From positions 1-64,000 of the forward strand of contig NZ_LDJG01000005.1 of the NCBI RefSeq assembly GCF_001431425.1: a stretch of DNA of 64,000 bases. The letters run 5' to 3'. The notes below the pieces were generated by a model. That model was given only the letters and a program-made list of their open reading frames with translations, was not told the DNA's origin and did not search any database. Source of the DNA: Stenotrophomonas nitritireducens (GTDB lineage Bacteria; Pseudomonadota; Gammaproteobacteria; Xanthomonadales; Xanthomonadaceae). Positions within the stretch are counted from its first letter, which is position 1. Every line of letters starts with the position of its first letter. A program made the translations under genes and the position numbers. This document shows, one piece after another, positions 2,687 through 53,826 of this stretch.

Positions 2687-2705
2687 GGGATTCTGCAAAC
2701 GGGGG

Positions 2706-12401: not shown

Positions 12402-12454
12402 GCGTTGCGTTCTCTTGGAATGCGCGCGGGGCGCGGGGAAAATCCGGGCAGGAG

Positions 12455-37268: not shown

Positions 37269-37303
37269 AAAAATACTCCTTGTTTTTCATGCACATGGAA
37301 GTT

Positions 37304-37319
37304 GGCACGGGATCTGCTT
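37304..37319 (+). promoter_or_regulatory. Sigma-54 (-24/-12) promoter of the permease operon
   Basis: TTGGCACG followed by GATCTGCTT puts GG (37304-37305) and GC (37316-37317) exactly 10 bp apart, as required. The match to the consensus TGGCACG-N4-TTGCW has a single mismatch. Transcription should start near 37329, leaving a leader of about 14 bases before the adaptor ATG. Confidence 0.8.
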
Positions 37320-37342: not shown

Positions 37343-38620
37343 ATGCCGACGATGATCCGCGACACCTCCGCACAGGACCACACCCTTTCCCAGCGCTCCC
37401 AGCCGAAATGGCGCCGTTGGCTGTGGCCGGCCGTGGCCGCGCTGGTGGTCCTGGCCGGCATCGGCTTCGTCGCCAAGGGCTGGCTCGGCGGCTCGCGCTC
37501 GTTCGATGGCGCGCGCCTGCGCATCGCCACCGTCGGCCGCGGCGACCTGGTCCGCGACATCGCCGCCGATGGCCGCGTGATCGCCGCCAACAGCCCGGTG
37601 CTGTATGCGATCTCCGCCGGCACGGTGACCCTGAAGGTGGTAGCCGGCGACGTGGTCAAGCAGGGCCAGGAGCTGGCGGTGATCGACAGCCCGGAACTGC
37701 GCAGCAAACTGGCCCAGGAACAGGCCACCCTGGCCGGCCTGGAAGCCGAGGCCGGCCGCGCCGCGCTCGACGCCACCCTGGCCCGCGCCACCGCCAGCAA
37801 GGTCACCGACCAGGCCGCCATCGACCGCCAGGCCGCCGCGCGCGACCTGGAGCGCTACCAGCGCGGCTTCGATGGCGGCGCCGTGCCGCAGGTCAACCTG
37901 GCCAAGGCGCAGGACGACCTGAAGAAGGCCGAGATCACCCTGCAGCACGCCAGGAGCGATGCCGCCCTGCAGAGCCAGGGCGCCGACCTGGACGCGCGCA
38001 ACAAGCGCCTGCTCGCCAACCGCCAGCAGGCGGTGGTGGACGAAGTGCAGCGCCAGGTGGACGCGCTGACCCTGCGCGCGCCGTTCGACGGCCAGGTCGG
38101 CCAGGTGCAGGCCACCCAGCACACGCAGGTCGCGACCAATGCGCCGATCCTGGGCGTGGTCGACCTGTCGCGCTTCGAGATCGAGATCAAGGTGCCCGAG
38201 AGCTTCGCCCGCGACCTGGCGATCGGCATGCCGTCGCAGCTCACCAGCGGTTCCGGCCAGCCGTTCCCGGGCGAGATTTCGGCCGTCTCGCCGGAAGTGG
38301 TCAACGGCGAGGTCGTGGCACGCATCCGCTTCTCCGACAAGCAGCCCGAAGGCCTGCGCCAGAGCCAGCGCATGAGCGCGCGCATCCTGCTCGACACCCG
38401 CAAGGACGTGATCAAGGTCGAGCGCGGTCCGTTCGTCGAGCAGTCCGGCGGCCGCTACGCCTGGGTGGTCAACGGCAGCACCGCCAGCCGCCGCCCGGTG
38501 CAGTTCGGCGTCAGCAGCCTGGGCGAAGTCGAGATCGTCTCCGGCCTGCAGCCGGGCGAGAAGGTCGTCGTTTCCGGTACCGACCTGTTCGGCGACGCCG
38601 AACGCGTTTCCATCAACTGA
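37343..38620 (+). CDS. HlyD/MacA-type periplasmic adaptor (membrane fusion protein)
   Basis: 425 residues with one N-terminal membrane helix (about 26-46), a barrel-sandwich (lipoyl-like) domain, a coiled-coil hairpin (about 120-240, rich in Ala/Gln/Lys) and a beta-barrel C-terminal part. The sequence RAPFDGQVGQVQATQHTQV marks the return strand of the lipoyl domain. It should link the inner-membrane permeases to an outer-membrane channel. No outer-membrane factor is encoded nearby. The ATG at 37343 lies about 14 bases after the predicted start; ATG at 37352 is an alternative. No clear ribosome-binding site is seen for either. Confidence 0.87.
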   Translation: MPTMIRDTSAQDHTLSQRSQPKWRRWLWPAVAALVVLAGIGFVAKGWLGGSRSFDGARLRIATVGRGDLVRDIAADGRVIAANSPVLYAISAGTVTLKVVAGDVVKQGQELAVIDSPELRSKLAQEQATLAGLEAEAGRAALDATLARATASKVTDQAAIDRQAAARDLERYQRGFDGGAVPQVNLAKAQDDLKKAEITLQHARSDAALQSQGADLDARNKRLLANRQQAVVDEVQRQVDALTLRAPFDGQVGQVQATQHTQVATNAPILGVVDLSRFEIEIKVPESFARDLAIGMPSQLTSGSGQPFPGEISAVSPEVVNGEVVARIRFSDKQPEGLRQSQRMSARILLDTRKDVIKVERGPFVEQSGGRYAWVVNGSTASRRPVQFGVSSLGEVEIVSGLQPGEKVVVSGTDLFGDAERVSIN

Positions 38621-38667: not shown

Positions 38668-39360
38668 ATGCTCCAGATGCAATCCGTTTCCAAGGTCTTC
38701 CGCACCGAACAGGTCGAAACCCACGCGTTGCGCTCGCTCGACCTGCACGTGCGCGAAGGCGAGTTCGTCGCCGTCACCGGCCCGTCGGGCTCGGGCAAGA
38801 CCACGTTCCTCAACATCGCCGGGCTGCTGGAGACCTTCACCAGCGGCCAGTACCTGCTGGATGGGCAGGACGTCAGCCACCTCGGCGACGACGCCCGCTC
38901 GCGCCTGCGCAACCAGAAGATCGGCTTCATCTTCCAGGGCTTCAACCTGATCCCCGACCTGAACCTGTTCGACAACGTCGACGTGCCGCTGCGCTACCGC
39001 GGCATGCCCGCCGCCGAACGCCGCGAGCGCATCGAGAAGGCGTTGAGCAGCGTCGGCCTGGGCTCGCGCATGAAGCATTACCCGGCCGAACTGTCCGGCG
39101 GCCAGCAGCAGCGCGCCGCCATCGCCCGCGCCCTGGCCGGCAGCCCGCGCCTGCTGCTGGCCGACGAACCGACCGGCAACCTGGACACGCAGATGGCGCG
39201 CGGCGTCATGGAACTGCTGGAGGAGATCAACAGCCAGGGCACCACCATCGTCATGGTGACCCACGATCCGGAGCTGGCCGCGCGCGCGCAGCGCAACGTG
39301 CACATCGTCGACGGCCAGGCCACCGACCTGCTGCGCGAACCGTCGCTGGCGCAGGTCTGA
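38668..39360 (+). CDS. MacB/LolD-type ABC transporter ATPase
   Basis: 230 residues with Walker A GPSGSGKT (38-45), signature LSGGQQQR, Walker B LLLADEPTG and the H-loop MVTHD. It belongs to the LolD/MacB class that drives FtsX-type permeases mechanically. AGGA stands upstream of the ATG. It is the only ATPase among eight permeases, so it probably serves all of them. It follows the adaptor gene by 47 bp. Confidence 0.93.
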   Translation: MLQMQSVSKVFRTEQVETHALRSLDLHVREGEFVAVTGPSGSGKTTFLNIAGLLETFTSGQYLLDGQDVSHLGDDARSRLRNQKIGFIFQGFNLIPDLNLFDNVDVPLRYRGMPAAERRERIEKALSSVGLGSRMKHYPAELSGGQQQRAAIARALAGSPRLLLADEPTGNLDTQMARGVMELLEEINSQGTTIVMVTHDPELAARAQRNVHIVDGQATDLLREPSLAQV

Positions 39361-39493: not shown

Positions 39494-40816
39494 ATGTTCG
39501 CCTACTACCTGAAACTCGGCCTGCAGAGCCTGCGGCGCACGCCGGTGCTCACCACGCTGATGGTGCTGTCCATCGCCGTGGGCATCGGCGCGGCGATGAC
39601 CACGCTGACGGTGATGCACCTGCTGTCCGGCGATCCGCTGCCGGGCCGCAGCCAGCACATCTTCTACCCGCAGGTCGATGCGCTCTCGACCGAGCGCGCG
39701 CGGCGCTACCCGCCGGACATGCTCGACTACACCTCGGCGATGGACCTGTGGCGTGCCAGGCGCGGCGACCGCCAGGCGCTGGTGAACGACAGCGAGATCA
39801 AACTGCACGCGCCGGAAACCGGGCAACCGCCGCTGATGACGATGATGCTTTCCACGCACGCCGACTTCTTCCCGATGTTCGCGGTGCCCTTCGCCTTCGG
39901 CGGCCCCTGGACGGGCGAAGACGACGAGCGGCGCGCGCGGGTCGCCGTCATCTCGTCCGACCTCAACGAAAAACTGTTCGGCGGCAAGGACAGCGTCGGC
40001 CGCACCCTGCGCATCCGCGATGCCGACGTGCGCATCGTCGGCGTGCTGGGACCGTGGCGACCGTCGCCGCAGTTCCACACCCTGGCCGGCGGCAACTTCT
40101 CGCAGGGCGACACCGCCAGCTTCTACGGCAAGCCCGAGGACGTGATGGTGCCGTTCCAGACCGGGCTGGAAATCAACGATGGCAACTTCAGCCAGTTCAC
40201 CTGCAATGCACTGCCTGCCGTGCCCGGCCACCTGCAGAACAGCGAGTGCGTCTGGCTGCAGCTGTGGGTGGAACTGGGCAGCGCCGCCAAGGTCGCCGAC
40301 TACCGCCGCTTCGTCGCCGACTACGCCGCGCAGCAGAAAGCGCTGGGCCGTATTCCCTTCCCGGAGAATGCGCGCCTGCTGTCGCTGATGCAGTGGCTGG
40401 ACTACAACCACGTGGTGCCGCGCGACGTGCGCCTGCAGAGCTGGCTGGCGCTGGCGTTCCTGGTGATCTGCCTGTTCAACACGGTCGGCCTGCTGCTGGC
40501 CAAGTTCCTGCGCCGCAGCGGTGAGATCGGCGTGCGCCGTGCGCTGGGCGCGTCGAAGCGCTCGATCTTCGCGCAGTGCCTGATCGAAGCCGGCCTGATC
40601 GGCCTGATCGGCGGCACGCTCGGCCTGCTGCTGACCCTGCTCGGGTTGTGGGCGATCCGCAGCCAGCCGGTGGAATACGCCGATCTCGTGCACCTGGATC
40701 TGCCGATGTTCGCGGCCACCTTCGTCTTGTCGGTGTCGGCCAGCATCGTCGCCGGACTGTTCCCCGCCTCGCGCGCCAGCCGCATCGCGCCGGCGATGCA
40801 GCTGAAGACCCTGTAA
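39494..40816 (+). CDS. FtsX/MacB-like ABC permease, A type (pair 1)
   Basis: 440 residues. One N-terminal membrane helix (about 16-38) is followed by a large periplasmic MacB-type domain (about 40-310) and three C-terminal helices with GEIGVRRALGAS between the second and third, the FtsX signature. The periplasmic part has two cysteines (FTCNA, SECVW) also found in the other A-type copies. It is first of the A type, which begin MxxYYLKL or similar and end LQLKS/T. It pairs with the next gene, 13 bp downstream. Confidence 0.88.
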   Translation: MFAYYLKLGLQSLRRTPVLTTLMVLSIAVGIGAAMTTLTVMHLLSGDPLPGRSQHIFYPQVDALSTERARRYPPDMLDYTSAMDLWRARRGDRQALVNDSEIKLHAPETGQPPLMTMMLSTHADFFPMFAVPFAFGGPWTGEDDERRARVAVISSDLNEKLFGGKDSVGRTLRIRDADVRIVGVLGPWRPSPQFHTLAGGNFSQGDTASFYGKPEDVMVPFQTGLEINDGNFSQFTCNALPAVPGHLQNSECVWLQLWVELGSAAKVADYRRFVADYAAQQKALGRIPFPENARLLSLMQWLDYNHVVPRDVRLQSWLALAFLVICLFNTVGLLLAKFLRRSGEIGVRRALGASKRSIFAQCLIEAGLIGLIGGTLGLLLTLLGLWAIRSQPVEYADLVHLDLPMFAATFVLSVSASIVAGLFPASRASRIAPAMQLKTL

Positions 40817-40829
40817 GCGGAGCCAACGC

Positions 40830-42044
40830 ATGGACATCAAGCCAATCCTCTCCGCCCTGGGCCGCCACCGCATCGCCGCCGCATTGATCGTGCTGGAAAT
40901 CGCGCTGGCCTGCGCGGTGCTGTGCAATGCCTTCCTGCTGATCGCCGGCCGCCTGGAGCTGATGCATATCGACAGTGGCGTGCAGGAAAACACCGTGGGC
41001 ATGATCGCGCTGAGCGGCTGCGACGGCTGCAACAACGCCGATCTCAACGCACGCGTGCTCGGCGCGCTGCGCGCGATCCCCGGCGTGCGCGCCGCCGGCA
41101 CCGCCAACAGCGCCCCGTTCGGCCCGCGCGCTGGCATGATGGGTGCCACGCTCGACCGCGAGGGGAAGCAGTGGGGCGGCGTGCTGCACTTCTACATGGC
41201 CGATGCCGCCGCGATCGAGACGCTGGGCCTGCGCCCGGTACAGGGCAACGCCTTCGCCGCCAGCGATTTCCAGCCGATCGACAACTTCGTGCCGAGCGAC
41301 GCACCGGTGTGGATCACCCGCGCACTGGCCGAGCACCTGTGGCCGGGCGAGAGCCCGCTGGGCAAGGAACTGTGGAGCGGCGCGCATTTCCGCGTGACCG
41401 GCGTGGTGGACCACTTCGCCGTCACCTCCCCCGGCCGCACCGAGGAAGGCGTGGCCGGCGTGCAATGGTCGGTGATCGTGCCGGTGCGCGACGACGCGCA
41501 ATCGGGCACCTACGTGCTGCGTGCCGATCCGCTCGACCTGCCCCAGGTGATGCAGGCCGCGCGCGCGGCGGTAGCCCGCGCCGTGCCCGAGGCGGTGATC
41601 GACCAGCAGCAGAGCCGCATGCTGTCCGAACTGCGCGAACGCTATTTCCGCAGCGACCGCGCCATGGCATGGCTGCTGGTCGGCGTGATCGCCGCGATGC
41701 TGCTGGTCACCGCGCTGGGCATCATCGGCCTGGCCAGCTTCTGGGTGCAGCAGCGCACCAAGCAGATCGGCATCCGCCGCGCGCTCGGCGCCACCCGCGG
41801 CCAGATCACCCGCTACTTCCAGACCGAGAACCTGCTGCTGACCGGCACCGGCATCACTCTCGGCATGCTGCTGGCCTATGGCGGCAACCAGATGCTGATG
41901 CACTACTTCGAAACCGCGCGGCTGCCGCTGCACTACCTGCCACTTGGCGCGGTGGCCTTGCTGCTGCTGGGCCAGGCCGCCGTCATCGGCCCGGCGCTGC
42001 GCGCCGCCGCCGTCCCACCCATCGTCGCCACCCGCAGCGCCTGA
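40830..42044 (+). CDS. FtsX/MacB-like ABC permease, B type (pair 1)
   Basis: 404 residues with the same topology as its partner but a different N terminus (MDIKPILSALGRHR) and the FtsX motif QIGIRRALGAT. The C terminus ends in PPIVATRSA, a trait of the B type. Near residue 50 it has GCDGCNN, a CxxC not seen in the other B-type copies. Probably forms a heterodimer with the preceding A-type protein. Confidence 0.88.
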   Translation: MDIKPILSALGRHRIAAALIVLEIALACAVLCNAFLLIAGRLELMHIDSGVQENTVGMIALSGCDGCNNADLNARVLGALRAIPGVRAAGTANSAPFGPRAGMMGATLDREGKQWGGVLHFYMADAAAIETLGLRPVQGNAFAASDFQPIDNFVPSDAPVWITRALAEHLWPGESPLGKELWSGAHFRVTGVVDHFAVTSPGRTEEGVAGVQWSVIVPVRDDAQSGTYVLRADPLDLPQVMQAARAAVARAVPEAVIDQQQSRMLSELRERYFRSDRAMAWLLVGVIAAMLLVTALGIIGLASFWVQQRTKQIGIRRALGATRGQITRYFQTENLLLTGTGITLGMLLAYGGNQMLMHYFETARLPLHYLPLGAVALLLLGQAAVIGPALRAAAVPPIVATRSA

Positions 42045-42063
42045 ACCGCGCAAGGAAACAAGC

Positions 42064-43368
42064 ATGTTCGCCTACTACTTCAAACTCGCGCTGCGCAGCT
42101 TCCGCCGCAACAAGGTGCTCACCGCGCTGATGGTGCTGGCCATCGCGCTGGGCATCGGCGCGGCGATGACCACCCTGACCGTGTTCAAGGTGCTGTCCGG
42201 CGACCCCATCCCGCACAAGAGCGAGCGCCTGTTCTACGTCCAGCTCGATCCCTATACCCGCGACGGCTACAAGCCCGGCGAGGAACCGGAGCAGCAGTTG
42301 ACCCGCTTCGATGCCGAGGAACTGCTGCGGCAGAAGAAGGCGCCGCGGCAGGCGATGATGACCGGCGGCGACGGCATCGTCGATCCGCGGGTCGACGCGC
42401 TCAAGCCGTTCAGCGTCGGCGCGCGCTTCACCTCGGGCGATTTCTTCCCGATGTTCGACACGCCGTTCCTGTACGGACAGGGCTGGAGCGGTGCCGAGGA
42501 CACCGGCCACGCGCGGGTGGCGGTGATCGGCCGCACCCTCAACGAGAAGCTGTTCAAGGGCGAGAACAGCGTCGGCCGCGAAGTACTGTTCGAAGGCCAC
42601 CCGCTGCGCATCGTCGGCGTGCTCGATACGTGGTCGCCGCAGCCGCTGTTCTACGACGTGTTCGTCGGCAAGTTCGACCGCAAGGAAGAGGTGTTCCTGC
42701 CCTTCTCCACCTCGCGCGACCTGGACTTGGACCGCAGCGGCAACATGAACTGCTTCGGCCGCGAGATCGTCAACGATGCCACCGCGCTGAACGTACCCTG
42801 CGCCTGGATCCAGTACTGGGTGGAACTGGACTCGGCCGGCGACGCCGCCACGTTCAAGACCTACCTGGACAACTACTCCGACCAGCAGCGTGCCGCCGGC
42901 CGTTTCGAGCGCCCGGCCAATACCCGCCTGCGCAACGTGATGCAGTGGATGGACTTCCGCGGCGTGGTGCCCGGCGACGTGCGCCTGCAGATGTGGCTGG
43001 CCTTCGGTTTCCTGCTGGTGTGCCTGGTCAACACGGTCGGCCTGCTGCTGGCCAAGTTCCTGCGCCGCAGCGGCGAGATCGGCGTGCGCCGCGCGCTCGG
43101 CGCCAGCCGCATGGAGATCTTCAAGCAGTGCCTGGTCGAGGCCGGCACGGTGGGGCTGGCCGGCGGCCTGCTGGGCCTGCTGTTCGCGCTGGGCGGGTTG
43201 TGGGCGGTACGGCAGCGTCCGGCCGAGTACGCGTCGCTGGCGCACCTGGACGGCTCGATGCTGCTGCTGACCTTCGCCCTGGCCATCGCCGCCAGCCTGC
43301 TGGCGGGCATCCTGCCGGCATGGCGGGCGATGCAGGTGACGCCGGCGCTGCAGCTCAAGAGCCAATAA
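42064..43368 (+). CDS. FtsX/MacB-like ABC permease, A type (pair 2)
   Basis: 434 residues, closely similar to the pair-3 A-type protein (SFRRNKVLTALMV and the block SGDPIPxKSxRLFY). Conserved periplasmic cysteines appear in NMNCFG and NVPCAW. The C terminus ends LQLKSQ. The ATG at 42064 begins MFAYYFKL, exactly as in the first A-type copy; an earlier in-frame start would read into the previous gene. The preceding gap is 19 bp. Confidence 0.88.
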   Translation: MFAYYFKLALRSFRRNKVLTALMVLAIALGIGAAMTTLTVFKVLSGDPIPHKSERLFYVQLDPYTRDGYKPGEEPEQQLTRFDAEELLRQKKAPRQAMMTGGDGIVDPRVDALKPFSVGARFTSGDFFPMFDTPFLYGQGWSGAEDTGHARVAVIGRTLNEKLFKGENSVGREVLFEGHPLRIVGVLDTWSPQPLFYDVFVGKFDRKEEVFLPFSTSRDLDLDRSGNMNCFGREIVNDATALNVPCAWIQYWVELDSAGDAATFKTYLDNYSDQQRAAGRFERPANTRLRNVMQWMDFRGVVPGDVRLQMWLAFGFLLVCLVNTVGLLLAKFLRRSGEIGVRRALGASRMEIFKQCLVEAGTVGLAGGLLGLLFALGGLWAVRQRPAEYASLAHLDGSMLLLTFALAIAASLLAGILPAWRAMQVTPALQLKSQ

Positions 43369-43382
43369 AGCTGGAACAACTG

Positions 43383-43443
43383 GAGGAGTGGGGAGCAGGC
43401 GACCGGCTCTCCTCTCACTTCCCACTCCTCGTTTTTTTATTTT
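43383..43443 (+). terminator. Intrinsic terminator inside the permease operon
   Basis: GAGGAGTGGG (43383-43392) and CCCACTCCTC (43421-43430) form an exact 10-bp stem over a 28-bp loop, followed by G and seven T residues and then ATTTT. This is a classic rho-independent structure in the gap between the third and fourth permease genes. It should reduce, not abolish, transcription of the distal genes. Confidence 0.75.
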
Positions 43444-43461
43444 CCGCTCCCGGAGAACCCC

Positions 43462-44685
43462 ATGGAAATCCGCCCCATCCTCTCCACGCTGGCGCGCCAC
43501 AAGATGGCTGCCGCCCTGATCGTGCTGGAGATCGCGCTGAGCTGCGCCATCATCTGCAACGCGCTGTTCATCGTCACCCAGCGCCTGGAAACCCTGAACC
43601 TGGCCAGCGGTATCGACGACGACCGCCTGATCGAGATCGCCCTGAGCGGCATCGGCCAGCAGACCGACGCCGACGCCCGCACCGCCGAAGACCTGGCCTC
43701 GCTGCGCGCCATCCCCGGCGTGGAGCGCGTGGCGATCACCAACCAGCTGCCGTTCCAGAACGGCAGCTGGAACACCTCGCTCTCGCTCACTCCCGAGCAG
43801 GAAGTGCCTACCCTCAACGCCACCCAGTACCTGGTCAACGAGGGCGCGCTGGCCACCATGGGCCTGAAGCTGATCGCCGGCCGCGACTTCAACGCCGACG
43901 AGTACAAGAGCAACGACGAGCTGCGTTCGATCGAAGACGTCGCCAGCCTGCGCTCGGCGATCATCCTGAGCAAGGCGTCCGCCGACAAGATGTTCCCCGA
44001 CGGCGGCGCGGTCGGCAAAACCGTGTACATGGCCAACATCCAGCTGACCATCGTCGGCGTGGTCGACACCCTGCTGCGCCCGAACCTGATGGGCGGCAAC
44101 CGCACGTTCTCGGTGATCTTCCCGATCCGCATGAACTTCTCCAACGGCGGCCGCTACCTGGTCCGCGTCACCGACCCGGCTCGCCGCGCCGAGGTGCTCG
44201 ACCAGGCGCTGGCCGCGCTGGACAAGAACGACCCCAACCGCCTGGTCTGGCGCAAGCAGACCTACGAGCAGGGCCGCGCCAGGTACTTCGCCAACGATCG
44301 CGACATGATCGGCCTGCTGCTGATCGTCAGCGGCCTGCTGTTGCTGGTCACCGCGCTGGGCATCGTCGGCCTGGCCAGCTTCTGGGTGCAGCAGCGCACC
44401 AAGCAGATCGGCATCCGCCGTGCGCTGGGCGCGACCAGGGGCCAGATCCTGCGTTATTTCCAGACCGAGAACTTCCTGCTGGCGACGATCGGCATCGTCA
44501 TCGGCATGCTGCTGGCCTACCTGCTGAACCAGTGGCTGATGGGACGCTACGAACTGCCGCGCCTGCCGCTGCTGTACATGCCGGTCGGCGCGGGCGCGCT
44601 GTGGTTGCTGGGGCAGATGGCGGTGTTCGGCCCGGCCCGCCGCGCCGCGGCGATCCCGCCGGCCGTCGCCACCCGCAGCACCTGA
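43462..44685 (+). CDS. FtsX/MacB-like ABC permease, B type (pair 2)
   Basis: 407 residues, beginning MEIRPILSTLARHK and with KQIGIRRALGATRGQILRYFQTEN near the C terminus. The periplasmic region is relatively acidic and lacks cysteine. It follows an internal terminator and has its own CCGGAG ribosome-binding site. Probable partner of the pair-2 A-type protein. Confidence 0.88.
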   Translation: MEIRPILSTLARHKMAAALIVLEIALSCAIICNALFIVTQRLETLNLASGIDDDRLIEIALSGIGQQTDADARTAEDLASLRAIPGVERVAITNQLPFQNGSWNTSLSLTPEQEVPTLNATQYLVNEGALATMGLKLIAGRDFNADEYKSNDELRSIEDVASLRSAIILSKASADKMFPDGGAVGKTVYMANIQLTIVGVVDTLLRPNLMGGNRTFSVIFPIRMNFSNGGRYLVRVTDPARRAEVLDQALAALDKNDPNRLVWRKQTYEQGRARYFANDRDMIGLLLIVSGLLLLVTALGIVGLASFWVQQRTKQIGIRRALGATRGQILRYFQTENFLLATIGIVIGMLLAYLLNQWLMGRYELPRLPLLYMPVGAGALWLLGQMAVFGPARRAAAIPPAVATRST

Positions 44686-44686
44686 G

Positions 44687-44730
44687 CCGGCCGAATGCCC
44701 CTCTCCCCACGGGGGAGGGGCTGCGGCCGG
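44687..44730 (+). repeat. Compound hairpin in the gap between permeases 4 and 5
   Basis: Outer arms CCGGCCG (44687-44693) and CGGCCGG (44724-44730) enclose a second, nearly perfect stem (44697-44708 with 44711-44721). There is no T-tract, so it more likely shapes mRNA stability than ends transcription. The CCCCTCTCCCC core looks like a dispersed intergenic hairpin. The rest of the 141-bp gap shows nothing else clear. Confidence 0.5.
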
Positions 44731-44826
44731 AGACCACCGGATCGCGCCAGTCCCCTCATCCATCACTTCGCACCGCAATCCCCCGGGGGTCATCCCCCGA
44801 AGGGAAAAGGAAATCCTGGAGCCCTC

Positions 44827-46140
44827 ATGCTCGGCTACTACCTGCAGCTCGCGCTGCGCAGTTTCCGCCGCAACAAGGTACTGACCGCGTTGATGGTGGT
44901 GACGATCGGCATCGGCATCGGCGCGGCCATGACCACGCTCACGCTGTACAAGGTGCTGTCCGGCGACCCGATCCCGGAGAAGAGCACGCGGCTGTTCTAT
45001 CCGCGGCTGGAACCGCGCACGCTCGGCCGCGATGTCAGCGTGGACCCGGAGCCGATGGAGCAGATGACCCGCTTCGACTCCGAGGAACTGCTGCGGCAGA
45101 AGCGCGGACTGCGCCAGGCGATGATGAGCGCCGGCTCGCTGACGGTGCTGCCCGAGGGTACCGCCGCACAGCCGTTCCGCGCCGCGTCGCGCTACACCTC
45201 GGCCGATTTCTTCGCCATGTTCAACGCGCCGCTGCGCGCCGGCCATGCGTGGAGCGCGGACGATGACATGTCGCGCGCGCGCGTGGCGGTAATCGGCGCC
45301 AAGCTGGCCGAAAAACTGTTCGGCGATGCCGATCCGATCGGACGCGAGATCCACGTGTCGCAGGGCGTACTGCGCGTCATCGGGGTGATGGACGAGTGGA
45401 AGCTCAACCCGCGTTTCTACGACCTGAGCAACCGCCGCTTCGGCGGCGGCGAACAGGTGTTCCTGCCGTTCTCCACCTCGCGCGACATGCGCCTGCCCAC
45501 GCAGGGCAACATGAACTGCTGGGGCAACAGCAACGGCGACCCGGAAGGCGCGCGCGGACTCAATGCGCCCTGCACCTGGCTGCAGTACTGGGTGGAACTG
45601 GAATCGCCAGAGAAGGCCGCCGACTACCACAAGTACCTGGCCGACTATTCGGACCAGCAGCGCGCCGCCGGCCGCTTCGAGCGACCGACCAATGTGCGCC
45701 TGGACGACGTGATGGGCTGGCTCGACTACAACCGGGTGGTGCCCAACGACGTGCGCATGCAGATGTGGCTGGCGTTCGGCTTCCTGCTGGTGTGCCTGCT
45801 CAACACGGTCGGCCTGCTGCTGGCCAAGTTCCTGCGCCGCAGCGGCGAGATCGGCGTGCGCCGCGCGCTCGGCGCCGCGCGCGGCGACATCTTCCGGCAA
45901 TGCCTGACCGAGGCCGGCGCGATCGGCCTGGCCGGCGGTCTGCTCGGCCTCGGCTTCGCCGCGCTGGGGCTGTGGCTGATCCGCCAGCAGCCGGACGACT
46001 ACGCACGCCTGGCGCAGCTGGACATCGGCACGCTGCTGATGACCTTCGCACTGGCCCTGCTGGCCAGCCTGCTGGCCGGCATGCTGCCGGCGTGGCGGGC
46101 GATGCAGGTGCCGCCGGCATTGCAGCTCAAGAGCCAGTAA
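44827..46140 (+). CDS. FtsX/MacB-like ABC permease, A type (pair 3)
   Basis: 437 residues. Begins MLGYYLQLALRSFRRNKVLTALMV; the ATG at 44827 is chosen by this alignment with pair 2, since the in-frame upstream sequence encodes the translated intergenic hairpin. The A-type cysteines are present (NMNCWG, NAPCTW). The FtsX motif is GEIGVRRALGAARGDI. Ends LQLKSQ. Highest visible similarity is to the pair-2 A-type protein, pointing to a recent duplication. Confidence 0.88.
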   Translation: MLGYYLQLALRSFRRNKVLTALMVVTIGIGIGAAMTTLTLYKVLSGDPIPEKSTRLFYPRLEPRTLGRDVSVDPEPMEQMTRFDSEELLRQKRGLRQAMMSAGSLTVLPEGTAAQPFRAASRYTSADFFAMFNAPLRAGHAWSADDDMSRARVAVIGAKLAEKLFGDADPIGREIHVSQGVLRVIGVMDEWKLNPRFYDLSNRRFGGGEQVFLPFSTSRDMRLPTQGNMNCWGNSNGDPEGARGLNAPCTWLQYWVELESPEKAADYHKYLADYSDQQRAAGRFERPTNVRLDDVMGWLDYNRVVPNDVRMQMWLAFGFLLVCLLNTVGLLLAKFLRRSGEIGVRRALGAARGDIFRQCLTEAGAIGLAGGLLGLGFAALGLWLIRQQPDDYARLAQLDIGTLLMTFALALLASLLAGMLPAWRAMQVPPALQLKSQ

Positions 46141-46153
46141 GGAGAGAAACGCC

Positions 46154-47371
46154 ATGGAAATCCGCCCCATCCTCTCCGTCCTGATGCGGCACAAGACCGC
46201 CGCGGCGTTGATCGTGCTTGAGATCGCGCTGAGCTGCGCGATCATCTGCAATGCGATCTTCGTGATCGGCCACCGTACCGGGGAGATGCGCCGCGACAGC
46301 GGCATCGCCGAGGACGAACTGGTCTACATCAGCGTCAGCAGCCTGCAGCCGGACCGCAACCGCGACGCGATGCGGCGCGAGGACACCGCCACCCTGGCCG
46401 CCGTGCCCGGGGTCAGGTCGGTCACCAGCGTCAACCAGCTGCCCTACGGCGACAACGTCTGGGCCTCGGGCATCAACCTGCGCCCGGGCCAGGCCGAGTC
46501 CATCGTCACCGCGTCCAATTACATGGACGATGGCCGGCTGCTGCCCACCCTGGGTCTGCGCATCGCCGAGGGCCGCGGCTTCAATCCCGACGAATACCAG
46601 AGCCAGGATGCGCTGGAGGCGGCCGGACCGACGCCGCAGGTGCCTTCCGTCCTGTTGAGCCGCTCGCTGGCGGCGCGGTTGTTCCCGGGCAGGAGCGCGC
46701 TCGGCCAGGACATCTACGTCTGGGGCGACAAGCCCAGCCGCGTGGTCGGCGTGGTCGACCGGCTCATCGCGCCGGGGCGCGGCCGCACCTTCGAGGACAG
46801 CTTCCACACCATGATCTTCCCGCTGTGGACATCCAACGGCGACTACGTGCTGCGCACCGATCCCGAACGCCGCGGCGAAGTGCTCAAGGCCGCCGTGGCC
46901 GCGCTCAACCGGACCGATCCCAACCGGATCATCGACACGCAGAGCACGGTGAGCGAAATGCGCCGCGACTTCTACAGCCGCGACCGCGCGGTGATCTGGC
47001 TGCTGGTGAGCGTCTGCGTCGCGCTGCTGGCGGTGACCGCCTTCGGCATCGTCGGCCTGGCCAGTTTCTGGGTGCAGCAGCGTACCCGCCAGATCGGCAT
47101 CCGCCGCGCGCTCGGCGCCACCCGCGCGCAGATCCTGCGCTATTTCCAGGCGGAGAATTTCGTGCTCACCAGTACCGGCATCGTGCTCGGCGTGCTGCTT
47201 GCCTATACCTTGAACCTGACCCTGATGCGCCAGTACGAACTGCCGCGCCTGCCGCTGGTCTACATTCCGGCCAGCGCGCTGCTGCTGTGGCTGCTGGGCC
47301 AGGCCGCGGTACTTGGACCCGCGCGCCGCGCCGCCTCCATTCCACCGGCCGTCGCCACGCGCAGCGCCTGA
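46154..47371 (+). CDS. FtsX/MacB-like ABC permease, B type (pair 3)
   Basis: 405 residues, nearly identical to the pair-2 B-type over the first helix (MEIRPILSVLMRHKTAAALIVLEIALSCAIICNA) but diverged in the periplasmic domain. The C-terminal FtsX part has RQIGIRRALGATRAQILRYFQ. It lies 13 bp after its A-type partner with AGGAG upstream. Confidence 0.88.
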   Translation: MEIRPILSVLMRHKTAAALIVLEIALSCAIICNAIFVIGHRTGEMRRDSGIAEDELVYISVSSLQPDRNRDAMRREDTATLAAVPGVRSVTSVNQLPYGDNVWASGINLRPGQAESIVTASNYMDDGRLLPTLGLRIAEGRGFNPDEYQSQDALEAAGPTPQVPSVLLSRSLAARLFPGRSALGQDIYVWGDKPSRVVGVVDRLIAPGRGRTFEDSFHTMIFPLWTSNGDYVLRTDPERRGEVLKAAVAALNRTDPNRIIDTQSTVSEMRRDFYSRDRAVIWLLVSVCVALLAVTAFGIVGLASFWVQQRTRQIGIRRALGATRAQILRYFQAENFVLTSTGIVLGVLLAYTLNLTLMRQYELPRLPLVYIPASALLLWLLGQAAVLGPARRAASIPPAVATRSA

Positions 47372-47389
47372 TATCCGCGGGAACTCCTG

Positions 47390-47872
47390 ATGAAGACCAC
47401 GCTGCGCCTGTTGCCCCTGCTGCTGATGTCGCCCGCCGCCGCCGTGCTGGCGGCCGACGACCTGGCCACCACCATCACCGCGCTCGACGATGCGGTGTTC
47501 GACAGCTTCAACCAGTGCCAGGACCCTGCGCAGCTGCAGAAGCACGCCGGCTACTTCGACCCGGCGGTCGAGTTCTACCACGACACCGGCGGGGTCACCT
47601 GGACCCGCGAGGCGATGCTGGACAACACGCGCCGCCACGCCTGCGGCCGCTACACCCGCGAACGGGTGGCCGGCAGCCTGCAGGTATTCCCGGTCAAGGA
47701 CTTCGGCGCCATCGCCCAGGGCAGCCACCGTTTCTGCGATACCGCCAGCGGCAGGTGCGAGGGGCTGGCCGACTTCGTCATGCTCTGGCGCCTGCACGAT
47801 GGCCAGTGGTCGATCACCCGCGTGCTGAGCTATGCCCACCGCGCAGCCCATCCACCGGCGGTGCAGCCATGA
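47390..47872 (+). CDS. Secreted NTF2-like (DUF4440-type) protein
   Basis: 160 residues: signal peptide (about 1-22, ending LAA) and an NTF2-like alpha+beta fold recognisable from YFDPAVEFYHDTGGVTWTREAML and LWRLHDGQWSITRVLSY. Three cysteines (FNQCQDP, RHACGR, HRFCDT, with a fourth in GRCEG) suggest disulfides in the periplasm. NTF2-like folds bind small ligands or act as enzymes; which applies here is unknown. It is embedded in the permease operon, 18 bp after permease 6 and overlapping permease 7 by four bases (ATGA). Confidence 0.8.
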   Translation: MKTTLRLLPLLLMSPAAAVLAADDLATTITALDDAVFDSFNQCQDPAQLQKHAGYFDPAVEFYHDTGGVTWTREAMLDNTRRHACGRYTRERVAGSLQVFPVKDFGAIAQGSHRFCDTASGRCEGLADFVMLWRLHDGQWSITRVLSYAHRAAHPPAVQP

Positions 47873-49200
47873 ACTACACGCTGGAGCTGGGCTTGAAGGG
47901 ACTGTGCCGGCACCCGCGCACGATGCTGCTGGCGGTGTTCACGATGGCGCTGGGCCTGGCCGCGACGATGACCATGCTGACCCTGCTGGCGATGCTCTCG
48001 GCCGATCCGCTGCCGGGCCAGAGCCGCAACCTGTACCTGGCGTGGGTGGATTCGCGGCAGGCGCCCGACGCCGGCGACAAGCTCGACGACGAAAGCCGCA
48101 CGCCGCCGCGCCTGCTGAAGCTGGCCGACGTAAAGGCGCTTGCCGCTGCCATGCCGCAGGCGCGGCAGGCGGCGCTGGTGCCGACCTCGCTGTCCCTCGA
48201 CAACGAGGACGGCAGCACCCAGGCCTCGGTGCGCGCGCTGCTCGCCACCGGGCCGATGCCGTCGATGTTCGCGGTACCGCTGCAGCACGGCCGCTACTGG
48301 ACCGCGCAGGAGGAACGCGAACATGCCCCGGTGGCGATCATCGACCGCGAAACCAGCCTGAAACTGCTCGGCACCGCCAATGGCACCGGCCAGCGGGTCC
48401 GTATCGGCAGGACGTTGTTCCAGGTCATCGGCATCAGCGCCGGGTGGAATCCGCAACCGCACTTCTACGCGCTGCAGGGCAACGAGAGCGCGTGGGGCAA
48501 GCAGTTCGCCGTGCGCGTCTACCTGCCGCTGGAAAGCGCGCTGGATGCCGGCGTGACGCCGGCGAGCAGCCAGGACTGCGACCGCGGCAAGCATGGCGGG
48601 TTCCGCTTCAACGAACTCGACGTCGGCGCCTGCCGCTTCCTGCAGCTGTGGGCCGAGCTGACCACGCCCGAATCCGTGCGCTCGTTCAACGACCAGCTCG
48701 ACGGTTACACCCGCCAGCGCCATGCCGAGGGCGTCTTCGTGCGTCCCCCGCAGTCGCGGCTGTACAGCGTGCGGCAATGGCTGGCCGCCAACCGCGCAGT
48801 GCCGGCCAGCGTGCACCTGAACCTGTGGCTGGCGGCAGGCCTGCTCGGCCTGTGCATGGTCAACGTCGCCGGGCTGCTGGCGGCGCGCTTCCTGCGTCGC
48901 GGCACGGAACTGGGGGTACGCCGCGTGCTGGGCGCGTCGCGCCGCGACATCGTCCTGCAATGCCTGACCGAAGCCGGCATCGCCGGCCTGGCCGGCGGCC
49001 TGCTGGCGTTGCCGCTGACCCTGTTCGGGCTGTGGGTGGTGCGCCTGCAGGACCGTGGCTATACCGAACTGGCGCACCTGAATCCGCTGCTGTTCCTCGC
49101 CCTGCTCGCACTGGCGATGCTGGTCGGCCTGCTGGTGGGCGTGCTGCCGGCCTGGCGGGCGACACGCATCGAGCCGGCGCTGCAGGTGAAGAGCCTCTGA
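47869..49200 (+). CDS. FtsX/MacB-like ABC permease, A type (pair 4)
   Basis: 443 residues and the most diverged A-type copy (MNYTLELGLKGLCRHPRTMLLAVF). The FtsX motif is TELGVRRVLGASRRDI. The A-type cysteines occur in SSQDCDRG and VGACRF. The ATG at 47869 overlaps the stop of the NTF2-like gene, so the two are coupled. Ends ALQVKSL. Confidence 0.87.
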   Translation: MNYTLELGLKGLCRHPRTMLLAVFTMALGLAATMTMLTLLAMLSADPLPGQSRNLYLAWVDSRQAPDAGDKLDDESRTPPRLLKLADVKALAAAMPQARQAALVPTSLSLDNEDGSTQASVRALLATGPMPSMFAVPLQHGRYWTAQEEREHAPVAIIDRETSLKLLGTANGTGQRVRIGRTLFQVIGISAGWNPQPHFYALQGNESAWGKQFAVRVYLPLESALDAGVTPASSQDCDRGKHGGFRFNELDVGACRFLQLWAELTTPESVRSFNDQLDGYTRQRHAEGVFVRPPQSRLYSVRQWLAANRAVPASVHLNLWLAAGLLGLCMVNVAGLLAARFLRRGTELGVRRVLGASRRDIVLQCLTEAGIAGLAGGLLALPLTLFGLWVVRLQDRGYTELAHLNPLLFLALLALAMLVGLLVGVLPAWRATRIEPALQVKSL

Positions 49201-49206
49201 CGGGGA

Positions 49207-50481
49207 ATGACCATGGGAACCGCTTTCACCTTACCCGCCATCGGCCCGATCATCTCGGGGCTGCGCCGCCATCGGCTGATGCCGCTGCTGGTCATCGCCC
49301 AGATCGCCCTGGCCTGCGCCATCCTGACCAACGCCCTGTTCCTGCTGCAAAGGCAACTGGCGCCGCTGCTGGTCGACGACGGCATCGTCCGCGACGAAGT
49401 GCTGCTGGTGGACCAGCTGATCCTGGGCAAGGGCCGCTGGAGCACCGCCGAGGTGCAGGCCACCCGGGAAGCCCTGCGCGCGCTTCCCGGCGTGCGCGCG
49501 GTCGCGCCGACCACCGGCGTGCCGATGCGCCAGGTGATGACCTTCGAACTGCCGGTGAAAAGCCCGGCCGGCGTCGCGGTGGCCGCCACCGGCTATGCCG
49601 GCGACGGACTGGTGCAGGCGCTGGGCCTGGAGATCGTGCAGGGCCGGGATTTCAGCGACGACGAGTACGCCGCCACCGGCGCCCTGTTCGGCGATGGCAA
49701 CCGCGGCAACATCGTGCCGGTGGTGATCACCGAAGCCCTGGCCCGGCACCTGTTCCCCGATGGCGGCGCGCTCGGTGGCCGGCTGGGCGGCGACGAAGGC
49801 CCCGACGACGACAGCTACTACGTGGTAGTCGGTACCGTCCGCCATCTGCTGCGCTACCAGCTCGGCGAACTGGACGACGGCCAGGCCGAGTATTCGATGC
49901 TCTACCCGGCGCGCAGGTTCGACAACCTGCCGGTCATGTCCTACGTGGTGCGCACCGATCCCCTGCGCCGGGACGAAGTGGCCAAGGCCATCCCCGCGCT
50001 GCTGGAACGCCAGTTCGGCGGCCGCCTGATGCGCGGCGTGCCGCCGGTCGTCATCGATTACGAAAGCCAGCGGCGCGACGCATTCACGCAACGGCGCGCG
50101 GCCGTCTGGCTGCTCGGCACCGTCTGCGTGGTGGTCACCCTGATCACCGTGATCGGCATCGCCAGCCTCAGCGGCTACTGGATCGAGCAACGTACCCGGC
50201 AGATCGGCATCCGCCGCGCGCTGGGCGCTACCCGGCGGCAGATCCTGGGCCATTTCCGCTGGGAAAACCTGCTGCTGGGCTGCGCCGGGCTGGCGCTGGG
50301 CCTGCCGCTGGCGCTGGCGATCAATCAGTTGCTGATGCACTACCACGAACTGCCGCGGCTGCCGCTGCACTGGCTGCCGATCGGTGCGGCGGTGCTGCTG
50401 CTCACCGGCCAGTGCGCGGTGTCCGGCCCGGCCCGTCGCGCGGCGTCGATTTCACCGGCCATGGCAACGCGCGGCGCATGA
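49207..50481 (+). CDS. FtsX/MacB-like ABC permease, B type (pair 4)
   Basis: 424 residues, the last permease, beginning 6 bp after its partner. It shows the B-type features RQIGIRRALGATRRQILGHFRWEN and the C-terminal PAMATRGA. The N-terminal helix (LMPLLVIAQIALACAILTNALF) matches the other B types. A second ATG at 49213 is possible. Confidence 0.87.
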   Translation: MTMGTAFTLPAIGPIISGLRRHRLMPLLVIAQIALACAILTNALFLLQRQLAPLLVDDGIVRDEVLLVDQLILGKGRWSTAEVQATREALRALPGVRAVAPTTGVPMRQVMTFELPVKSPAGVAVAATGYAGDGLVQALGLEIVQGRDFSDDEYAATGALFGDGNRGNIVPVVITEALARHLFPDGGALGGRLGGDEGPDDDSYYVVVGTVRHLLRYQLGELDDGQAEYSMLYPARRFDNLPVMSYVVRTDPLRRDEVAKAIPALLERQFGGRLMRGVPPVVIDYESQRRDAFTQRRAAVWLLGTVCVVVTLITVIGIASLSGYWIEQRTRQIGIRRALGATRRQILGHFRWENLLLGCAGLALGLPLALAINQLLMHYHELPRLPLHWLPIGAAVLLLTGQCAVSGPARRAASISPAMATRGA

Positions 50482-50593: not shown

Positions 50594-51934
50594 ATGCCGC
50601 AGATACTGATCATCGACGACAACGCCGCCGTGGCCACCGCGCTGGACGTGCTGTTCTCGCTGCACGACATCGAGACGCGGCATGCGTGCTCGCCCGAGCA
50701 GGGGCTGGCGATGCTCGCCGAGCAGGAGTTCGACCTGGTGATCCAGGACATGAACTTCACCGCCGATACCACCTCCGGCGAGGAAGGGCAGGTGCTGTTC
50801 CGGCAGATCCGCGACAGCTGGCCGGACCTGCCGGTGATCCTGCTCACCGCCTGGACCCATCTGGACAGCGCGGTGGAACTGGTCAAGGCCGGCGCCGCCG
50901 ACTACCTGGCCAAGCCGTGGGACGACGGGCGCCTGCTGACCACGGTCAACAACCTGCTGGAGCTGGCCGAGACCCGCCGCGAACTGAGCCGCCGCCGCCA
51001 GCGCGAGCTGAAACAGCGGCAGAGCCTGCACGAGCGCTACGACCTGGCCGGCGTGGTGTTCGCCGACCCGGCCAGCGAGCGCGTCATCAGCCTGGCGTGC
51101 CAAGTCGCCCGCTCCGACCTGCCGGTGCTGATCACCGGCCCCAACGGCGCCGGCAAGGAGAAGATCGCCGAGATCATCCAGGCCAACTCCGGCAAGCGCG
51201 GCGGCCCGTTCGTCGCGCTCAACTGCGGCGCGATCCCCGCCGAGCTGATCGAGGCCGAACTGTTCGGTGCCGAAGCCGGCGCCTATACCGGCGCCAACAA
51301 GGCGCGCGAGGGCAAGTTCGAGGCTGCCGACGGCGGCACCCTGTTCCTGGACGAGATCGGCAACCTGTCGCTGACCGGGCAGATGAAACTGCTGCGCGTG
51401 CTGGAGACCGGCCGCTTCGAGCGCCTGGGTTCCAACCGCGAGCGCCAGGTGAAGGTGCGCGTGGTCAGCGCCACCAACGCCGACCTGCCGGCGATGATCC
51501 GCGACGGCAGCTTCCGCGAAGACCTCTATTACCGCCTCAACACCGTGGAGCTGGCGCTGCCGGCGCTGGGCGAGCGGCGCGAGGACATCCTGCCGCTGGC
51601 GCGCCATTTCCTCGGCGACGAGGGCAAGGCGCTGTCGCCGCAGGCCGTGCAGGCGCTGCAGCGGCACACCTGGCCCGGCAACGTGCGCGAACTGCGCAAC
51701 GTGATCCAGCGCGCCAGCCTGCTCGCGCAGGGGCCCCGGATCGAAGCGCCCGACCTCAACCTGCCGCGCGCGCCGCTGCGCCCGACCGCGCCGGCGGACG
51801 AGCCGGACCGCGCGCGCATCGTCGGCGCGCTGGAGCGCGCCGGCGGCGTCATCGCCCAGGCCGCCGCCGACCTCGGCCTGAGCCGGCAGGCGCTGTACCG
51901 GCGCATGGACCGCCACGGCATCCCGCGCGAATGA
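50594..51934 (+). CDS. NtrC-family sigma-54 response regulator
   Basis: 446 residues in three parts. The receiver (about 1-120) has the acidic pair D9/D10, phosphoacceptor D52 and K in AKPWDD. The AAA+ domain (about 155-385) has Walker A GPNGAGKE (182-189), the sigma-54 contact loop GAYTGA (229-234) and Walker B GTLFLDEIG. The C-terminal Fis-type helix-turn-helix is at about 412-442. GAYTGA in place of GAFTGA is tolerated in active members. It should activate sigma-54 promoters, and a near-consensus one stands at the head of this same locus. The ATG at 50594 follows a GTG codon that could also serve. Confidence 0.93.
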   Translation: MPQILIIDDNAAVATALDVLFSLHDIETRHACSPEQGLAMLAEQEFDLVIQDMNFTADTTSGEEGQVLFRQIRDSWPDLPVILLTAWTHLDSAVELVKAGAADYLAKPWDDGRLLTTVNNLLELAETRRELSRRRQRELKQRQSLHERYDLAGVVFADPASERVISLACQVARSDLPVLITGPNGAGKEKIAEIIQANSGKRGGPFVALNCGAIPAELIEAELFGAEAGAYTGANKAREGKFEAADGGTLFLDEIGNLSLTGQMKLLRVLETGRFERLGSNRERQVKVRVVSATNADLPAMIRDGSFREDLYYRLNTVELALPALGERREDILPLARHFLGDEGKALSPQAVQALQRHTWPGNVRELRNVIQRASLLAQGPRIEAPDLNLPRAPLRPTAPADEPDRARIVGALERAGGVIAQAAADLGLSRQALYRRMDRHGIPRE

Positions 51935-53346: not shown

Positions 53347-53826
53347 CTACGCGCTGCGGCTGCCCGCCACCAGCAGCGCCAGCGCCGCGCACATCGCCAG
53401 CACGAAGGCCTCCGCCACGCGCGGCAGCACCAGCAGCACGCCGGCGGCCAGGAAGAACAGCTGGCCCATGATCGACAGGCCGAAGCGCTGCAGCAGCAGC
53501 GGCCGCGACCGCAGCTCGCGGCGCAGCGCGGCCATGCCGCGCACGGTGCGGATCACCAGCACCCCGCCCACCGCGAGCAGCAGCAGGCCGTGATTGATCC
53601 GCCCAAGCACCGGCACGATCAGCAGCAGCGAGCACACCAGCACGCCGAGGAAATCCAGGTACACCTGCTGGGCCAGCGCATGCATCGCGCCATCCCTGCC
53701 CAGTCCGCGCCGGTCGCGGTCGAAGGTCATCGCCACGAACACCAGGCCGAGCAGGCCACCGCCGATCTGCGCGGTAGCGATGAAGAACGCACTGCATGCC
53801 GCAAGTTGCTGTTCAAAGCCATCCAT
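53347..53826 (-). CDS. Small integral membrane protein of unknown function
   Basis: 159 residues with four predicted helices (about 12-34, 56-76, 78-96 and 116-152, the last perhaps two). The segment TAQIGGGLLGLVFVAMTFDRDRRG suggests the uncharacterised 'hypothetical membrane protein' group of Xanthomonadaceae. I do not know a function. It converges with the kinase gene (55-bp gap) and is 24 bp downstream of glmU, so it could be the last gene of the glmU transcript. Confidence 0.7.
   Translation of the reverse strand: MDGFEQQLAACSAFFIATAQIGGGLLGLVFVAMTFDRDRRGLGRDGAMHALAQQVYLDFLGVLVCSLLLIVPVLGRINHGLLLLAVGGVLVIRTVRGMAALRRELRSRPLLLQRFGLSIMGQLFFLAAGVLLVLPRVAEAFVLAMCAALALLVAGSRSA

Follow-up and report, generated by a model that had tools for sequence, protein, structure and literature searches.

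A glmS–glmU operon of four FtsX/MacB-like permease pairs with one ATPase and one adaptor in Stenotrophomonas nitritireducens

The operon and its permeases

We analyzed the first 64,000 nucleotides (nt) of contig NZ_LDJG01000005.1 of Stenotrophomonas nitritireducens (assembly GCF_001431425.1), called the window below, in which an operon contains eight FtsX/MacB-like permease genes arranged as four A+B pairs. The locus had the order glmS – [adaptor, ATPase, eight permeases and a DUF4440 gene, NtrC-type regulator, histidine kinase] – glmU, with the bracketed genes on the + strand. A preliminary description of this DNA had proposed that the four pairs share one ATPase and one adaptor; the single ATPase and single adaptor of the operon were both found just upstream of the permeases. 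The features, with positions in the window, lengths in amino acids (aa) and transmembrane helices abbreviated as TM, were as follows.

37303–37318, + strand: putative sigma-54 (-24/-12) site TGGCACGGGATCTGCT, about 50 bases 5' of the adaptor gene
37352–38620, + strand: periplasmic adaptor of the HlyD/MacA type, 422 aa (Pfam HlyD_3 and HlyD_D23 above cut-off; NCBIfam RND_mfp, 143 bits, cut-off 95)
38668–39360, + strand: the operon's sole ATPase, LolD/DarD/MacB type, 230 aa (Pfam ABC_tran; top NCBIfam match DarD, 262 bits, below its cut-off of 375)
39494–40816, + strand: permease A1 (pair 1), 440 aa (MacB_PCD and FtsX; N-terminal half of ADOP TIGR03434)
40830–42044, + strand: permease B1 (pair 1), 404 aa (FtsX; C-terminal half of ADOP)
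42064–43368, + strand: permease A2 (pair 2), 434 aa (Pfam, NCBIfam; AlphaFold model with a predicted local distance difference test score, pLDDT, of 83 and a MacB/LolE-like fold)
43462–44685, + strand: permease B2 (pair 2), 407 aa (Pfam, NCBIfam; AlphaFold model with pLDDT 91 and a MacB/LolE-like fold)
44827–46140, + strand: permease A3 (pair 3), 437 aa (Pfam, NCBIfam)
46154–47371, + strand: permease B3 (pair 3), 405 aa (Pfam, NCBIfam)
47390–47872, + strand: DUF4440 (NTF2-like) protein, 160 aa (Pfam DUF4440, 29.3 bits, cut-off 25.2)
47869–49200, + strand: permease A4 (pair 4), 443 aa (Pfam, NCBIfam)
49207–50481, + strand: permease B4 (pair 4), 424 aa (Pfam FtsX and MacB_PCD)
50594–51934, + strand: NtrC-type response regulator with receiver, sigma-54 activator and Fis helix-turn-helix domains (Pfam; GAYTGA loop in the sequence)
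51942–53291, + strand: histidine kinase whose two TM helices are separated by almost no periplasmic loop (HATPase_c; hydropathy segments 6–33 and 35–55)

The alternation of A and B forms and their lengths, as first described, were borne out by complete open reading frames of 440, 434, 437, and 443 aa for the A forms and 404, 407, 405, and 424 aa for the B forms. The ending LQ(L/V)KS ascribed to the A forms stood except in A1, which ends in MQLKTL, and the permease series in the window was interrupted by the DUF4440 gene, which separates pairs 3 and 4. Pfam FtsX scored above cut-off in all eight permeases and MacB_PCD in seven of them, the exception being B1. In the NCBIfam scan of four A and three B forms (B4 was the one permease outside it), the A forms aligned to residues 5–401 and the B forms to residues 411–802 of the ADOP model TIGR03434. 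Because A and B match the two halves of this single-chain protein, an A+B pair is most simply explained as two halves of one transporter, and each pair most likely forms one heterodimer. The top structural match of the A2 and B2 models was the Streptococcus permease 5xu1, with Z scores of 23.9 and 24.8 and large root-mean-square deviations (rmsd) of 9.4 and 8.1 over 362 and 367 residues, followed by LolE and MacB; the top rows for 5xu1, MacB, and LolE had Z scores of 17–25 and rmsd mostly of 4–12. The predicted permease with four TM helices and a large periplasmic domain between TM1 and TM2, together with the MacB/LolD-type ATPase, placed the system among the type VII ATP-binding cassette (ABC) transporters. 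The closest solved relative of the ATPase by sequence was 5xu1_A.

For the adaptor gene, an alternative in-frame ATG further 5' at 37343 is possible. The DUF4440 protein had a start that, judged by eye, resembled a signal peptide, and the stop of its gene overlapped the start of A4; a PHROGs search with this protein gave no match. Its gene recurred in several Xanthomonadaceae arrays, after the last or the next-to-last pair.

Distribution of the arrays and their ATPases

The A-form profile matched 105 of 119 evenly drawn genomes in a family sample (E up to 1e-30), 60 of 61 in a genus sample (1e-60), and 70 of 121 in an order sample (1e-50); in Rhodanobacter, the genus of G267, a broader profile matched 39 of 40 genomes (1e-60). 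Two or more A-forms at one locus were found in 16 of the 119 family genomes, where the remaining matches were mostly one pair, and clustered A-forms were found in 12 of the 61 genus genomes, one array split over two contigs included; both counts, like the 13 A positions of genome G286 below, were read by hand from tables. Named multi-pair arrays included those of Stenotrophomonas, Xanthomonas, Dyella, Rhodanobacter, and Luteimonas. The other families of the order had mostly one A-form where matched. The ancestral state was therefore likely one pair, from which several Xanthomonadaceae genera and family f12 (Dyella, Rhodanobacter, and others) would have expanded their arrays. The recurrence of A+B arrays across Xanthomonadales is far beyond chance, and the array of pair cassettes with one motor is more general than the preliminary description supposed. 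An A1/B1 pair (A form 63% identical to that of the window) was also seen at 10001–12546 of locus L140, on a contig labelled Candidatus Eremiobacteraeota, by mis-binning or transfer.

Relatives were ranked by similarity to A1, and the best 79 loci of 458 relatives were kept. In the 102 complete non-redundant loci defined below, the numbers of A and B forms per locus were 1,1 (38 loci), 1,2 (1), 2,2 (21), 3,3 (7), 3,4 (1), 4,4 (19), 4,5 (1), 5,5 (10), 6,6 (2), 7,7 (1), and 12,12 (1), a distribution that does not represent population frequencies, since most multi-pair loci were fetched because they were multi-pair. The complete 12-pair array, from family f12 (G245:C13:36452-68254, loci L172–L174), comprised 24 permeases and a single copy each of adaptor, ATPase, regulator, and kinase.

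All 102 complete non-redundant loci, which had from 1 to 12 pairs, carried one ATPase (>300 bits) and one adaptor (>200 bits), where a complete locus was one with both adaptor (>200 bits) and regulator (>150 bits) detected, and where loci with an A protein identical to one already counted had been dropped. When the ATPase cut was lowered to 60 bits, 101 of the 102 loci had one ATPase, and L138 had a second, weaker one beyond the kinase. The order adaptor, ATPase, pairs, regulator was found in 102 of 102 loci, and the kinase was seen in 96; L210 had one extra pair beyond glmS. By a criterion that did not itself require an adaptor, the adaptor lay at most 600 bases before the ATPase in 93 of the 94 loci with ATPase, regulator, and enough upstream sequence, and in the 94th, L049, it was present outside that distance.

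ATPases were also searched genome-wide in five genomes (E up to 1e-40). G245, which holds the 12-pair array, had 15 A-forms and one ATPase of this class (77% identical to that of the window; the next, 56%), G195 had six A-forms and one such ATPase (77%; next 47%), and G286 had 13 A positions and one (76%; next 46%). In both G234 and G137, there was one more close ATPase next to a detached pair, with 78% and 77% identity, respectively, to that of the window. In the genome of the window (3.98 Mb, 95 contigs), there were 13 FtsX-domain matches, eight in the array and five others. The latter were a non-array pair on contig C7 with an ATPase adjacent at 24145, a LolC/E-like gene on C23 with an adjacent ATPase, an FtsX-like gene adjoining an FtsE-like gene at 173–174 kb of C45, and a MacB-like permease at 200.5 kb of C45 with a same-strand ATPase 2–4 kb upstream at 196.6 kb and an adaptor gene between them. 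Further ATPases had been envisaged as the real partners of single pairs; none was left over in this genome, as the five other FtsX-domain genes have their own ATPases nearby. Because gene content and evolution both point to it, a motor common to all pairs is well supported.

The scans for detached pairs and for alternation covered all loci, redundant ones included (L146 and L211 are one place). At 12 distinct places, no ATPase match above 60 bits was present within 4 kb to either side of an A+B pair, with examples in Luteibacter and S. maltophilia (L117, L146); such pairs could borrow the motor of the array. A fragment of 53–89 residues resembling the ATPase lay a few hundred bases before the A gene in L069 (6020–6178), L070 (5653–5829), L151 (9281–9547), and L209 (3018–3209; positions with the pair on the + strand), perhaps as the relic of a lost ATPase copy. 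In Duganella and Massilia of the Oxalobacteraceae (L152, L155), the order is A, B, adaptor, ATPase, with a pair of the mostly detached type K placed ahead of an adaptor and an ATPase of its own. Strict alternation was broken in eight loci, five with an extra full-length B form and three with split or cut-off genes. Split genes occurred in L126 and L153, and in G286 one A form contained a stop and another was split in two.

Co-evolution, replacement, and conservation of the pairs

Between loci, the identities of A forms correlated with those of B forms at 0.915 in 339 pairs (before later loci joined), compared with 0.218 when partners were shuffled within loci (standard deviation 0.026, maximum 0.317, n = 200). 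The nearest neighbours of A and B concurred in 17,013 of 20,868 comparisons, where 31% was expected. The preliminary description had proposed comparing separate phylogenies of the two forms, and the A and B trees agreed: 182 of 237 A splits with support of at least 0.9 were present in the B tree, whereas shuffling gave 29 on average and 41 at most (408 pairs; 20 within-locus partner shuffles). Co-variation and gene content thus supported its view of A+B pairs as units with a common motor and adaptor.

The description of the permeases as a duplicated, diversifying family did not hold in the sense of local tandem duplication. Same-array paralogues had a mean identity with a median of 45% and a maximum of 67% (602 comparisons), and the closest relative of a pair was in the same array in 3 of 344 cases; local tandem duplication and recent gene conversion were rejected as the origin of the pairs on these values. 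The absence of near-identical neighbours may also stem from recombination losing close repeats. The first helices of pairs 2 and 3, said to be nearly identical, had 81–82% DNA identity over the first 120 nt, and A1 and A2 had 84%; because the former are no closer than the latter, this similarity indicated conservation rather than a recent copy. Clustering at 58% gave 47 pair types that recurred in varied orders, and 24 of 91 multi-pair arrays (partial ones included) contained a repeated type. The pairs appear to be old types common to several genera, each gained, lost, or exchanged as an entire cassette.

Among the loci compared, the nearest relative of the window by adaptor, ATPase, regulator, and kinase was S. 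acidaminiphila (L192; L106). DNA identity was 95.8, 96.2, 95.1, and 92.9% for these four genes, respectively, and 89.4% for the DUF4440 gene, whereas it was 77.5/75.6% for A1/B1, 93.6/92.5% for A2/B2, 90.8/90.0% for A3/B3, and 65.2/63.4% for A4/B4. Pairs 2 and 3 had 91–96% protein identity at 90–94% DNA identity. Pair 1 of the window was 92.1/91.2% identical to that of S. daejeonensis (L201). For pair 4, the closest counterparts were in L030 (Stenotrophomonas sp. MMGLT7) and L035 (G030), with 62–70% protein identity. In a sliding alignment, identity dropped just past the ATPase gene and recovered at the A2 start (about 42,050), then dropped again at about 47,800 and recovered before the regulator at about 50,550. 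These edges were not fully sharp, as the last 400 bases of B1 were at 84–85% and the B2–A3 spacer also dipped. The initial ~400 bases of the alignment gave zero values, an artefact of a comparison segment that started too late. On this alignment, pairs 1 and 4 differ as complete cassettes, with the same motor and regulator. The differences may reflect either exchange between lineages or differential retention of old pairs; for pair 1, exchange would be the simpler explanation.

Within arrays, identity was lowest in the periplasmic domain (0.13–0.57) and peaked in the TM2–TM3 loop (A 331–345, 0.79; B 301–330, 0.79–0.81) and at the B C-terminus (0.83). In MacB, these places are coupling helices 1 and 2 (CH1 and CH2), which touch the ATPase (passages in PMC8277102). 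As a control for general conservation, paralogues within one array were compared with those of other arrays at equal periplasmic divergence, partial arrays included. They were more alike within an array at A-CH1 in 58 of 91 loci, at A-CH2 in 63 of 91, and at both B-CH1 and B-CH2 in 64 of 91. Other A regions (52/90, 44/91, 42/91, and 48/91) and TM3–4 of B (52/91) showed no clear excess.

Proposed exporter, rival explanations, and known systems

We propose, with a probability of roughly 0.7, that the operon encodes a type VII (MacB/FtsX-like) mechanotransmission exporter in which several alternative A+B heterodimers provide the permease, with one ATPase and one adaptor for all of them. A homodimeric ATPase and the adaptor would serve every pair, and ATP-driven export would proceed via the shared adaptor; this adaptor is presumed to dock with a TolC-type channel whose gene lies elsewhere. 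The operon contained no recognisable outer-membrane factor; 20 OEP domain matches were found at other places in the genome, none of them linked. The main differences between the pairs would lie in the periplasmic domains, by which different substrates would be chosen or handled, and the motor-facing coupling helices would be common to the pairs. The two ends of the operon would stay fixed, with sigma-54 promoter, adaptor, and ATPase at the 5' end and regulator and kinase at the 3' end, and entire cassettes between them would be acquired, lost, or replaced. At the level of sequence, the gene content, the rule of one motor across species, the co-evolution of the pairs, whole-pair replacement, and the pattern of conservation are shown; it is plausible that several pairs widen the substrate range. 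A broader model is offered tentatively, at somewhat less than even odds: a combinatorial exporter in which a fixed motor, adaptor, and regulator work with a variable bank of pair heads that are exchanged at cassette boundaries, with up to 12 tandem pairs and with detached pairs borrowing the motor in trans.

The -24/-12 pattern was found upstream of the adaptor in 71 of 109 non-redundant regions, the window included (base shuffles expect 0.2; 75 of 114 in a set with some redundancy), although it was drawn up after the site of the window was known and 38 of the 109 regions lack it. This site and the sigma-54 activator domain of the regulator were, on sequence evidence, those of a sigma-54-dependent, NtrC-type control system. 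Two TM helices with almost no extracytoplasmic loop characterize the intramembrane-sensing class of kinases, and the length of the TM region varied little among most of the 73 kinases examined (24 residues in 53 of them and 23 in 16); this topology is compatible with intramembrane sensing as in BceRS-like flux sensing. The operon would be activated by its own two-component system, which would sense envelope stress or transporter activity in the membrane and switch on the whole array together.

Several observations weigh against a shared motor serving fixed pairs. The adaptor count is partly given by definition, as complete loci required an adaptor. The partial locus L145 (Rhodanobacter sp. C06), which is outside the complete set as no adaptor was seen there, has two ATPase genes back to back with equal scores (2075–3558). 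Six detached pairs (L072, L151, L204, L205, L209, G163) have their own ATPase of at least 300 bits within about 150 bases, so that a private motor is also possible outside arrays. The extra full-length B forms of L034, L064, L097, L109, and L148 have no A partner, and pairing may therefore be looser than one-to-one. At the coupling helices, the excess was small (1–5 points) and the loci are related to each other; in B it extended beyond the helices to TM1 (63/91), TM2 (57/91), and the N-terminal helix (56/91). A coarser binned test of motor-interface matching in A was almost null, and the case for such matching in A is weak; moreover, the FtsX domain is conserved in any family of this kind. 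As to the ATPase doublet of L145, it lies at one end of the array and is either a real duplication or an assembly artefact.

It is unlikely that A and B pair freely across cassettes, which would give up to 16 heterodimers with one motor from four A and four B forms. The lone extra B forms could only work with an A form of another cassette, and within arrays the B termini and coupling helices closely resemble one another, but A and B of the same cassette covary (0.915 versus 0.218 after shuffling) and the cassettes of relatives differ as pairs. We also doubt that the array is not, or not only, an exporter and instead acts in flux sensing or envelope maintenance with the adjacent kinase, as BceAB does with BceS, or in lipid or lipoprotein extraction, as LolCDE does. 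The kinase topology described above and the presence of BceB and LolC/E among the structural matches would suit such a role. However, 93 of 94 loci have a MacA/HlyD-type adaptor no more than 600 bases ahead of the ATPase, we know of no Bce or Lol system with an adaptor, and the Bce regulators known to us are of the OmpR type. That each pair has its own ATPase elsewhere, with the operon ATPase serving one pair, is highly improbable: six detached pairs in relatives do adjoin their own ATPase, and those in G234 and G137 are 78 and 77% identical to that of the window, but the other type VII ATPases of the window genome sit near their own permeases, and a single ATPase of this class was found in each of the genomes holding 15, 13, and 6 A-forms. 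The split genes of a few arrays (L126, L153; G286) would fit the idea that most pairs are redundant or decaying and one works, but we give it very little credence, as all eight window genes are open and full length, the protein identity of pairs 2 and 3 relative to their DNA identity suggests purifying selection, and diverged pair types are kept across genera.

Window scans for RNA families and tRNAs found none marking the site. No genes for ribosomally synthesized and post-translationally modified peptides were recognised near the array, although no cluster-finding tool was run; the neighbours were glmS, glmU, GtrA, and atp genes, and a link to a biosynthetic cluster was dropped on that account. 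Between the kinase and glmU, a 159-aa membrane protein without a Pfam match is encoded at 53347–53826 (- strand). Near glmS, a protein that combines a winged-helix DNA-binding domain with PD40 beta-propeller repeats, a CadC-like layout, is encoded at 31495–33762 (+ strand).

A type VII ABC permease and its ATPase are normally viewed as one fixed set; here the parts list points to one motor with many heads. The array makes it testable in one organism what a MacB-type periplasmic domain selects, how much motor contact must stay conserved, and whether the exchange of permease cassettes gives rise to new export functions. In the commensal Rhodanobacter R179, dssA, an 'ABC transporter permease' gene in a 17-gene operon, is needed to dampen root immunity (excerpt of PMC11928319). 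Six-pair arrays have 16 genes by count, and Duganella and Massilia carry pairs of this family among the matches listed; from operon size and distribution, our guess is that the array is the system behind dssA.

SmaCDEF of S. maltophilia corresponds to Smlt1651-4 in excerpts of the literature; the glmS/atp region presumably lies elsewhere in that genome, and SmaCDEF was provisionally set aside as the same locus. Among the listed titles and abstract starts of open-licence PMC literature, no paper was recognisable as describing such arrays. The ADOP family, a duplicated permease named for Acidobacteria, has an 803-aa model (TIGR03434) of which A resembles the first half and B the second. Here, however, there are two genes, each scoring 124–196 bits against a cut-off of 622, and the operon begins with an adaptor and an ATPase; A+B pairs that lack an ATPase close by are found in the present family too. 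The darobactin-linked exporter DarBCD likewise combines an adaptor, an ATPase, and a MacB-type permease, and DarD was the best NCBIfam match of the ATPase. All scores were nevertheless far below the equivalog cut-offs (DarD, 262/375; DarC, 46.5/450; DarB, 38.8/700 bits), and the DarB model is a single 777-aa chain, whereas here the permease is a separate pair. In the part of PMC9055067 that we cite, darBCD is described as not essential for darobactin production.

MacAB-TolC resembles the array in the MacB permease fold, the adaptor type, and the positions of the coupling helices. In MacB, however, the ATPase is fused to the permease N-terminus, whereas here it is a separate 230-aa gene and the permease consists of unlike subunits in several versions. 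LolCDE has two unlike four-TM permeases and one separate dimeric ATPase (passages in PMC8277102), as we propose for each pair here. The scores against its equivalog models were below the cut-offs, with 224/308 bits for LolD and at most 29.5/362 bits for lolCE. To our knowledge, LolCDE has one pair only and no adaptor. MsmK, FhuC, MceG, and the ECF transporters belong to importers of other ABC types; they share with the array, according to excerpts of the literature, that one motor serves several membrane parts, and we know of none whose partners are tandem permease-pair cassettes in one operon. The array is a variant of the known type VII ABC exporters and not a separate class.

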